Assembly (NCBI RefSeq): GCF_000271665.2
Contig: NZ_CP010978.1
Coordinates: 2,572,501-2,636,500 of the forward strand
Origin: Pelosinus fermentans JBW45
GTDB taxonomy: Bacteria > Bacillota > Negativicutes > DSM-13327
Direction: 5' to 3'
DNA length: 64,000 nt
In this document: piece after piece, positions 9,070 through 12,307 of the stretch
Position numbering within the stretch: position 1 is the first letter of the stretch
How the letters are laid out: the number at the start of each line of letters is the position of its first letter
The notes under the pieces: model-generated
Database searches by the model: none
What the model saw: only the letters and a program-made list of their open reading frames with translations
What the model was told of the DNA's origin: nothing
Made by a program: the position numbers and the translations under genes

Positions 9070-9260
9070 ATTACATTTGGTGCATAACAACAAAAGGAGC
9101 TATTAATAATAAGAAAGCTAGGAGAGATACCTTTTCCTATTTGTCTGTGGTAATATGTAGTATAATCAGTAGTGTCCCACAAAAAACAGTGAATTACTAG
9201 ACGGTTAGTTATCTTAATCGAGCTAGCAAAGTGGAATAAGACCGAAGGAGTGTAAAACAA

Positions 9261-11060
9261 TTGACAACTATATATGGAGAGGTCAATGGTATACGAAAAA
9301 GTATTATTAATAGGCTTGAAGAATTATATGAATTTACTATTCCCTTTGGGCAAGTCATAACAAGTGAATTAGCTCAAAAATTAATCGATTTGACAGATGA
9401 CCTAAATCGTGAACTTGTTGTATATATTACCAGGAAAGGACAAGTTACTTGTGTAGCAGTTGGCGATGTCTATACCGTAACATTGCCCGAAATTGATGGG
9501 CGACGTTCTGCCAATCGATTAAGTGGTATTCGCTGTATTCATACTCATCCTAGTGGGGAGACAGAACTTAGTGGGGTAGACATAGCTTCATTAAAGGAAA
9601 TGCGCTTTGATCTAATGGCTGCACTGGGGCGCAAAGATGAGATAATACAAGCAAGCTTTGGTATTATTACCAATATTGAAAATGATCAATTTAATACTCA
9701 AATGATTGGCCCTTTGTCCATGGAGGAATTTATAGATCTGGATATTACATATTTAACTGCACAAATTGAGCGCCAACTCGATTTAAATACTAAAACGAGT
9801 GCTATTGCAGAAACTGAAAGAGCTCTATTGGTTGGGCTGGAGAGGCAAGGAAAGTGGCGAATTACTGACTCATTAAAGGAATTGGCTCAATTAGCAGAGA
9901 CGGCTGGTGCAGAAGTATTAGGTATGACGTGGCAAAAGAGGGATCGCCCAGATTCAGCTTTATTTATTGGACGTGGGAAAGTGCAGGAGATTAGCTTGCT
10001 GCGTCAGGAAAAAAATGCAAATCTCATTATTTTTGATGATGAGTTATCACCTGCACAACAACGCAATCTTGAGAAAGCCTTGGGTATTAAAGTTTTAGAT
10101 CGTACGGCGCTAATTCTAGATATTTTTGCACAGCGTGCCCGATCTCATGAAGGGAAATTGCAGGTTGAATTAGCCCAGCTTCGCTATAATTTACCAAGAT
10201 TAGGTGGACAAGGATTAGTATTATCTCGGTTAGGCGGAGGTATTGGTACTAGAGGTCCTGGCGAAACCAAGCTTGAAGTCGATAGACGTCGAATCAGAGA
10301 ACGTGTAAATGATATCACAAGACAAATTGAATATATAAAAAAACAGCGTAATTTGCATCGTAAACGTAGAGAAACTACTCGTATTCCTACGATCGCTTTA
10401 GTTGGCTATACAAATGCAGGAAAATCAACCTTACTCAACCTGCTTACAGCATCGGAAGTGTTGGCCGAGGATAAATTATTTGCAACGCTTGATCCAACAA
10501 CTAGGAATATTACGTTAGCAAATGGCCAACAAGCCTTAATTACTGATACAGTTGGCTTTATACAAAAGCTGCCGCACCAATTAATTGCTGCTTTTCGTGC
10601 TACCTTAGAGGAGGTTGTACAAGCTGATATTCTTCTACATGTTGTTGATGTTAGTCATCCTCAATACCAAGAACAAAGCCATGCTGTTTTTCAGGTTTTA
10701 CACGAATTGAATGTAGATATAAAACAATTAATTACAATTTTTAATAAGGTAGATAAAATAGCAGATCCGAATAGCGTAAGTGCTCTTTTAAAAACAGAAA
10801 ATAGCGTTATGATTTCTGCTTTGCATGGTCATGGTATTGAAGGACTATTATTATTAATTGAAAATACTATAAAGCAGAAAACCATTGAAATGCATTTGTT
10901 GATACCTTATGACGAAAGTAATGTAATAGCCAAGCTATATGATATATCAAATGTTCATTCTACGGAGTATCGTGAAGATGGTATCTATGTAAGTATTTCA
11001 CTGTCTCCAGACCAAACTAATTATTTTAATCGATATACTATAGGAGTAGAACAAGAATGA
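9261..11060 (+). CDS. hflX: GTPase HflX with N-terminal JAMM domain
   Basis: The 599-residue protein joins two parts. Residues about 180-595 are HflX: the N-terminal glycine-rich domain ([21 protein letters not shown] begins at 315), P-loop GYTNAGKST at 382-390, DTVGFI, and NKVD. HflX is a ribosome-splitting and rescue GTPase. Residues 1-170 precede the usual HflX start and contain [14 protein letters not shown] at 94-107. This fits the JAMM metalloprotease motif HxHx7Sx2D exactly, and E51 is a candidate catalytic Glu. TTG 9261 follows AAGGAG with good spacing. The next gene overlaps by ATGA. Confidence 0.93.
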
Positions 11061-12307
11061 CTAAATTTAGTGAAGAAATACTAAAAATACGTAAACAAGC
11101 ATTACAGCAGGCATCCTCTTTATTTGCTCGAGTGGATGAAATATCCGAAAAAAATACTACTAGAGTTCTAGAAATATTTCGTAACCACAGAGTATCTGAT
11201 TATCACTTTCGTACTACCTCAGGTTATGCCTATAACGATGCTGGACGAGAGAAGCTAGAAGAGGTTTGGGCTGACATCTGTGGAGCAGAAAAAGCATTAG
11301 TGCGTACTCAATTTGTATCTGGGACCCATGCATTGGCTACTGTGCTTTTTGGTTTACTGCGTCCTGGACATGAACTGTTATCCCTTACAGGAGCGCCTTA
11401 TGATACCATGCAAACCGTTATTGGGCATACTTGTTCCTCGCCTGGTTCTTTAAAAGAATTTGGTATCGGTTATTCAGAGCTTCCTATGATTGATAGTAGA
11501 GTAGATATAAAGAATATTGCTAGAGCTATGAAACCTAATACTAAAATGGTTTTGATTCAAAGGTCGCGAGGATATAGTATGCGAGCACCTTTAACGATTC
11601 ATGACATCAAGGAATTATGTGCTTATGTAAAGAAGATTGATCCTGAATGTATATGCTTTGTTGACAATTGCTATGGTGAGTTTGTTGATATCTTAGAACC
11701 AACTGCTGTTGGTGCTGATATTATGGCGGGTTCATTGATTAAGAATCCTGGGGGTGGCATTGCTCCAACAGGCGGATATATAGTCGGAAAAAAAGAATTG
11801 GTTGAACAAACAGCTTATCGAATGACTGCACCAGGTATTGGAAGTGAGTTAGGTGCGTCACTCGTTGATAATCGTCTTTTATTCCAAGGAATGTTTATGG
11901 CGCCACATACTACAGCCCAAGCTGTTAAGGGAGCTATATTTGCTTCTGTATTTTTTTCATTATTAGGTTATAAAACATTGCCTCTTCCTAATGAAGAACG
12001 TAGCGATATTATTCAAGCAATTCAACTTGACTCTCCAGAAAAATTAATAGCATTTTGTCAGGGGATCCAAAAGTATTCTCCGATAGATGCTCATGTACGA
12101 CCGGAGCCTAGTGCGATGCCAGGGTACCAGGATGCGATTATTATGGCTGCAGGTACCTTTGTGCAAGGTGCATCGATTGAGTTAAGCGCTGATGGTCCTT
12201 TGCGTTCACCGTACATCGTCTACTTACAAGGTGGATTAACCTTGGAACATGCTATAGTTGGGACTATGGGAGCTGCTGCTGAAATATTAAAAATAAAAAA
12301 TGAATAG
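11057..12307 (+). CDS. ynbB: YnbB-type PLP-dependent lyase (methionine gamma-lyase family)
   Basis: The 416-residue protein matches the so-called aluminium-resistance or YnbB family of fold-type I PLP enzymes related to cystathionine and methionine gamma-lyases. Visible marks are [18 protein letters not shown] (cofactor phosphate region), [11 protein letters not shown] (the PLP-contacting Asp) and [13 protein letters not shown], which contains the expected Schiff-base lysine. Its start overlaps the hflX stop, the same hflX-ynbB pairing seen in Bacillus. The substrate is unknown. It ends before a bidirectional terminator shared with lexA. Confidence 0.88.

Follow-up and report, generated by a model that had tools for sequence, protein, structure and literature searches.

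The hflX locus and its product

We analysed a stretch of 64,000 nucleotides from Pelosinus fermentans JBW45 (contig NZ_CP010978.1, positions 2,572,501 to 2,636,500), here called the window. It contains an hflX gene whose product has a long extension ahead of the usual HflX domains. HflX is a widespread GTPase of translation stress that splits stalled ribosomes, and its full role is debated. The features of the locus, numbered from the first letter of the window, are listed with the evidence for each in brackets.

9245..9250, + strand: AAGGAG, probable ribosome-binding site, ending 10 bases ahead of the TTG (sequence)
9261..11060, + strand: hflX with an N-terminal JAMM domain, 599 aa, TTG start (open reading frame)
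9261..9740, + strand: JAMM/MPN+ type domain, residues 1-160 (conservation, profile matches, AF2 model)
9411..9413, + strand: E51, predicted acid-base catalyst (invariant in 61/61 rows of alignment A1)
9540..9581, + strand: JAMM stretch, residues 94-107, fitting HxHx7SxxD (H94, T95, H96, S104 and D107 invariant)
9741..9818, + strand: linker to the HflX core, residues 161-186 (from the end of the modelled domain to where TIGR03156 begins)
9867..10130, + strand: GTP-bdg_N domain, residues 203-290 (PF13167, E 1.4e-35)
10134..10370, + strand: GTP-bdg_M domain, residues 292-370 (PF16360, E 1.5e-31)
10389..10748, + strand: GTPase domain, residues 377-496 (PF01926, E 4.3e-22)
10791..11033, + strand: HflX C-terminal domain, residues 511-591 (PF19275, E 3.5e-9)
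11057..12307, + strand: overlapping next gene, PF06838 PLP enzyme of the methionine gamma-lyase family (PF06838, E 4e-182)

The HflX domain order is complete (PF13167, PF16360, PF01926, PF19275). Residues 187-536 scored 487.6 bits against the HflX equivalog TIGR03156, well over its cut-off of 216.75, and residues 184-592 matched HflX entries in the PDB. When its own genome was searched with residues 1-175, one match was returned. The genome has a single HflX, and the N-terminus of this protein is almost certainly homologous to JAMM/MPN+ metalloproteases and retains a complete site. An earlier, sequence-only reading of the window had named the correct domain but covered only its first 113 residues; the modelled domain extends to about residue 160 (position 9740).

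Conservation of the JAMM motif

The JAMM/MPN+ motif is defined as EXnHS/THX7SXXD (PMC300881), and all of its elements are present in the N-domain of the window protein (E51, H94, T95, H96, S104 and D107). HxHx7SxxD was found once in the window's 74 frames of at least 100 aa, where shuffles expect 0.036, and the probability of the motif in the shuffled HflX frame was 0.00055. Judged by this count and this probability, the motif by itself is only suggestive.

Homologues were collected by searching 398 Bacillota genomes with residues 1-175, of which 67 matched at E <=0.001; with L031 and L032 added, the first set held 69 loci. Pelosinus propionicus, at 94%, was the closest named relative, followed by a MAG of P. 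fermentans at 93%. The exact fit to HxHx7SxxD noticed at residues 94-107 proved to be intact at the equivalent place in 62 of the 69 loci, so that, outside a few lineages without the site, both near and remote homologues keep the motif. It was lost in six loci (five of family code f41, plus L068), and L069 was a spurious ABC-transporter frame. E51 could be aligned in 61 of the 62 intact loci; the other, L052, reads TGREVAL there in its frame, and its row was shortened by a mechanically picked start codon.

Alignment A1 was built from 61 N-domains that are 22-94% identical to that of the window. It omits L052 (misplaced start), L068, L069 and the five loci of f41, and the window takes the place of L001. 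Nine of its 173 well-filled columns were invariant: E51, G60, G68, H94, T95, H96, P97, S104 and D107. E51, H94, H96, S104 and D107 had been singled out before any alignment was made, and all five are among the nine (hypergeometric P 1e-7, a value that treats columns as independent, which adjacent columns are not). E51 and S104, residues outside the predicted ligand set, were as invariant as the metal ligands (61/61), and the spacing from E51 to H94 was 43 residues in 43 of the 61 rows, with a range of 33-44.

Roles for these residues were taken by analogy with AfJAMM (PMC300881). H94, H96 and D107 are the predicted zinc ligands, E51 would activate a water molecule, S104 would stabilise the intermediate, and T95 is a predicted bracing residue. 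A domain of this kind would be expected to cut a peptide or isopeptide bond. Because the ligands and the non-ligands E51 and S104 are invariant together, we consider the domain likely to be catalytically active.

Relation to known JAMM families

Residues 1-175 gave no match over the cut-off in Pfam; the window scored 13.6 bits against Prok-JAB (E 0.061, cut-off 25) and 13.1 bits against RadC (E 0.094, cut-off 22.1). When the members of A1 were compared singly at E <=1, 38 of 61 matched Prok-JAB and 26 of 61 matched RadC, the best values being 5.5e-5 and 3.7e-4, respectively. The A1 profile matched 24 PDB sequences at E <=10, and 21 of these, including the best 16, were JAMM/MPN proteins. Sst2 was the best match (3.6e-4), with the JAMM motifs aligned.

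Profile comparisons were also made with hhalign. Against 31 RadC JAB domains A1 scored 33.3, which was reached by none of 100 shuffles (maximum 24.9), and against a JAB family from viral contigs it scored 62.9 with a probability of 96 (shuffle maximum 19.8). E51, put forward earlier as the candidate glutamate and invariant in A1, was paired with the Glu of an RE in both comparisons. The score against the Prok-JAB set (n=7) was 20.3 and did not beat the shuffles (maximum 21.4). The viral family, 80 distinct members, was collected by motif pattern, and RE[VILM] occurs within 60 residues ahead of the motif in only 19 of the 80. With the motif masked, the RadC similarity was gone (hhalign 14.1) and the viral JAB score was 20.1, which 1 of 99 shuffles reached; the sequence evidence beyond the motif is therefore suggestive only.

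The JAMM/MPN+ proteases AfJAMM, Pyrococcus JAMM1, AMSH/Sst2, Rpn11 and Csn5 share with the window domain EXnHS/THX7SXXD, a predicted MPN-type fold and, through Sst2, a profile match. Unlike those proteases, it is fused to a ribosome-splitting GTPase, and overall identity to them was about 7-16% in structural alignments. The JAB domain of RadC aligns with the window domain at HxHPSGxxxxSxxD and the upstream RE, but RadC has a helical N-terminal region and is encoded by a separate gene within the same genome. The closest profile relative found was the viral-contig JAB family (L155-L271), whose proteins differ in standing alone, at about 150-220 aa.

At least 80 different small JAB proteins from these viral contigs carry HTHP-x6-S-x2-D, often in the form HTHPFGxAYFSGTD. 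No functional PHROG match was obtained for the two of these proteins that were tried, and a viral scan with a single protein found no relative. One contig filed as viral (IMGVR_UViG_3300010167_001092; L272/L242) is 15 kb long, carries a full JAMM-HflX gene and is probably bacterial DNA.

Predicted fold

AF2 failed on an alignment of three Pelosinus rows (pLDDT 34). Alignment A4 combined four HflX rows (window, L031, L032 and L272) with 12 viral JAB rows picked for the motif and an upstream RE, out of 14 so selected, and yielded an MPN-type model with pLDDT 85.5 and pTM 0.83. In the model, a helix at 35-48 and strands at 52-57, adjoining E51, and 61-67 are accompanied by a strand at 90-96 that ends in HxH and a helix at 105-114 that starts between S104 and D107. 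As the viral rows were selected by motif, the model supports an MPN fold but is not independent of the motif.

VIA-align, which warns that Z <8 can be unspecific, returned a coherent match list in which the best matches were to Pyrococcus JAMM1 (Z 8.4 and 8.2; 3.5 A across 111 residues for the first). The JAMM1-SAMP2 complex came next, ahead of a 26S proteasome chain, an Rpn11 homologue and RadC. Going by titles and chain identities, we take the best 50 rows to be JAMM/MPN proteins throughout. Foldseek gave no PDB match at E <=0.001; near the top of its list were the Prp8 MPN domain (2.4e-3) and RadC (4.5e-3), and the best four included one unrelated chain. Against predicted viral proteins, it found 15 matches at E <=0.001, among them proteins annotated as MPN, RadC and minor capsid. 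An MPN-type fold is thus supported by prediction, in agreement with the earlier expectation of a JAB/MPN fold, although the alignment held viral JAB rows and the model from Pelosinus rows failed.

Distribution across genomes

The A1 profile matched 77 of the 398 Bacillota genomes. Weak matches in G100, G239, G268 and G294, in frames of 232-247 aa that are probably RadC, were excluded, leaving the extension in 73 genomes: 60 with an intact site, five of f41, one of f93 (L068) and seven of f85. The 60 intact genomes span 26 family codes and include one, G304, that is cut by its contig; L031 and L032, which come from outside the 398 sampled genomes, are not included in this number. HflX itself was over the cut-off in 305 of the 398. 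The intact domains lie in frame ahead of the HflX sequence, with L009 and L044 truncated where their contigs stop.

In the window's class (200 genomes), HflX was over the cut-off in 127 and the domain matched in 126. Comparison of the two lists by hand gave 123 genomes with both, four with HflX and no domain (G416, G417, G453 and G492) and two with the domain and HflX cut or missing (G421 and G489); G519, a weak match without HflX, was not counted as a domain. In this class the two are found together almost without exception. In G489, G505 and G545 the frames bearing the domain are split or interrupted, or the domain is at the end of a contig. HTHP-x6-S-x2-D was present in 55 of the 60 class frames checked, some of which share a genome. 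Four others vary but keep HxH-x7-S-x2-D, reading HMHP, HTHL and, twice in one genome, HSHP; the motif stretch is missing from L098.

Reach past Bacillota was gauged solely by two Fusobacterium records that also matched. One of them, annotated 'GTPase HflX', reads HTHPGGNPHLSSVD and matches HflX at 439 bits, an example of how a plain HflX annotation hides the domain, as had been anticipated. The Bacillota and class profile searches revealed no copy of the domain on its own; it stays with HflX. An origin from phages or plasmids was not supported, with no match in 50,697 phage records and only two plasmid records matched, both Fusobacterium.

Several irregular records were seen in these searches. 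NZ_CP084075.1 (L298), a 2.1-Mb Fusobacterium vincentii "plasmid" with hflX and one annotated feature, is probably a mislabelled chromosome. In G401, of the genus Pelosinus, the HflX and N-domain profiles match at both C1:2319757-2321355 and C1:3553367-3554965, which may represent two JAMM-HflX copies. The JAMM-HflX proteins of L053-L057 (f6), about 530-536 aa long, by eye stop soon past the GTPase and apparently lack the HflX C-terminal domain. In L318, L322 and L324 (f51, genus g57), ORFs of 740-830 aa run from HflX in frame into another domain that by eye resembles a DusB/NifR3-type tRNA-dihydrouridine synthase, which would be a further unannotated HflX fusion.

Lineages without the site

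An extension without an intact site persists in families f41, f84, f85 and f93. HTHP is replaced in f41, where E51 is altered in four of the five loci. The seven f85 loci and L402 (f84) keep the extension and have no HxH; f85 retains a Glu at the position of E51. Retention of the domain where its site is ruined suggests that it also has a docking role independent of catalysis, and these lineages are natural controls.

A quick tree of the HflX core had 95 labelled rows, comprising 56 with an intact site, 11 degenerate and 28 without the extension. On this tree the presence of the extension took at least eight changes and, among the rows that bear it, losing the site took two or more, with gain, loss and transfer indistinguishable in either case. 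Nine loci were omitted by choice (L010, L013, L025, L026, L032, L044, L057, L063 and L069), these being near-duplicates, one cut and one spurious. Six further rows of 102 fell out through identical cores or a missing pattern, and L273, cut by its contig, is unlabelled. Labels were assigned by pattern, with L002, L060, L068 and L402 corrected by hand, and the rows without JAMM were mostly the best-scoring HflX loci, not a random draw.

Neighbouring genes

Gene neighbourhoods were compared at 22 loci. The PF06838 PLP enzyme lies directly downstream of hflX in 11 and is a conserved neighbour outside the protein; lexA, on the opposite strand, is near hflX in nine. An AAA ATPase is found upstream in eight loci, and in the window it is far off. 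Also near hflX are hfq (six loci) and miaA, a methyltransferase and mutL (five loci each). The earlier reading had offered a peptide, a ribosomal protein or a ubiquitin-like modifier on stalled ribosomes as possible substrates. Among the neighbour clusters common to at least 4 of the 22 loci, the main ones of which were named with Pfam, no substrate and no ubiquitin-like or E1-like gene was recognised. The protease Prp trims L27. Prp (PF04327) is encoded separately in the same genome, and its presence ruled out the JAMM domain as a Prp replacement.

Discussion

No description of an HflX-JAMM fusion was found in the open-access literature searched. HflX does not occur in the accessible portion of a 2006 survey of prokaryotic JAB domains (PMC1779556). 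N-terminal extensions of HflX are also reported from several Clostridium and Paenibacillus species, where the accessible sections of the review concerned leave them unexplained and name no JAMM domain (PMC12493154). The fusion joins two known families in a new architecture, and the proposal, first made from the window alone, of a JAB/MPN metallopeptidase-type domain joined to HflX is supported by conservation, profiles and predicted fold.

The best explanation overall, and one towards which we lean, is that a zinc (iso)peptidase is brought to the ribosome by HflX. HflX would be the delivery device, its GTP-bound form docking on the large subunit and splitting stalled or hibernating 70S ribosomes. 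The protease would then be held at the subunit interface, close to uL16, H38 and H69-71, and there would trim or detach one protein, for instance the tail of a ribosomal protein, a conjugated tag, or a factor involved in hibernation or rescue. Action at the ribosome is proposed from a single basis, the fusion to HflX; that the domain acts on a ribosome-bound protein seems to us quite possible, if short of probable.

According to the accessible sections of the same review, the first domain of HflX sits against H69, and the N-terminal extension of mycobacterial HflX runs as far as the H69-71 junction, making contact with uL16 and H38 (PMC12493154). By analogy with this addition at the same end of HflX, the JAMM domain would plausibly lie at the subunit interface. 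The mycobacterial extension differs in being 39-58 residues long and, in those sections, is not described as a protease domain (PMC12493154). Ordinary HflX of the E. coli, Listeria and B. subtilis type has the same GTP-bdg_N, GTP-bdg_M, GTPase and HflX_C domains but is without the 186-residue JAMM extension of the window protein.

Three other explanations were weighed. One HxHx7SxxD match is weak, and extrapolation of the shuffle rate leads one to expect a few per proteome, but a chance motif in an unrelated N-terminal extension is extremely improbable and was rejected, given conservation in 62 of 69 loci and nine invariant A1 columns, the spread across 26 family codes, and the JAMM/MPN proteins matched by profile and by fold. 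Many eukaryotic MPN domains are inactive scaffolds, and the persistence of site-less extensions in f41, f84, f85 and f93 would likewise fit an MPN-type docking or remodelling module that aids the binding or opening of the ribosome by HflX, its metal site being structural or vestigial and non-cutting. The mycobacterial extension, which in the accessible part of its description works by disordering rRNA helices, points the same way (PMC12493154). A purely structural site would not need both E51 and S104, however, and these non-ligands, like the ligands, show no variation in any of the 61 rows; we think a docking module unlikely as the whole explanation.

The domain might instead be an active JAMM enzyme that has nothing to do with stalled ribosomes, cleaving a soluble fusion or conjugate of the MoaD/ThiS type, with HflX only regulating or localising it. 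DRJAMM of Deinococcus was reported to cleave MoaD-MoaE, going by the accessible part of that work (PMC8832034), and JAMM1 bound to the ubiquitin-like SAMP2 is in the VIA-align list. Against this, no free-standing copy of the domain turned up and it remains with HflX, whose common neighbours are mutL, miaA, hfq, the AAA ATPase, the PLP enzyme and lexA; we regard a soluble substrate as quite unlikely.

Returning to a peptidase delivered by HflX, we tentatively propose that part of the Bacillota and Fusobacterium possess a GTP-gated, ribosome-borne JAMM protease, in which HflX splits a stalled or hibernating ribosome and, at the interface so exposed, also removes a specific covalent mark or protein tail. 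An invariant protease site has been hidden under the name 'GTPase HflX'. If the proposal is true, bacteria without a known ubiquitin pathway would link ribosome rescue to trimming or deconjugation, an arrangement loosely comparable to that of Rpn11 on the proteasome.
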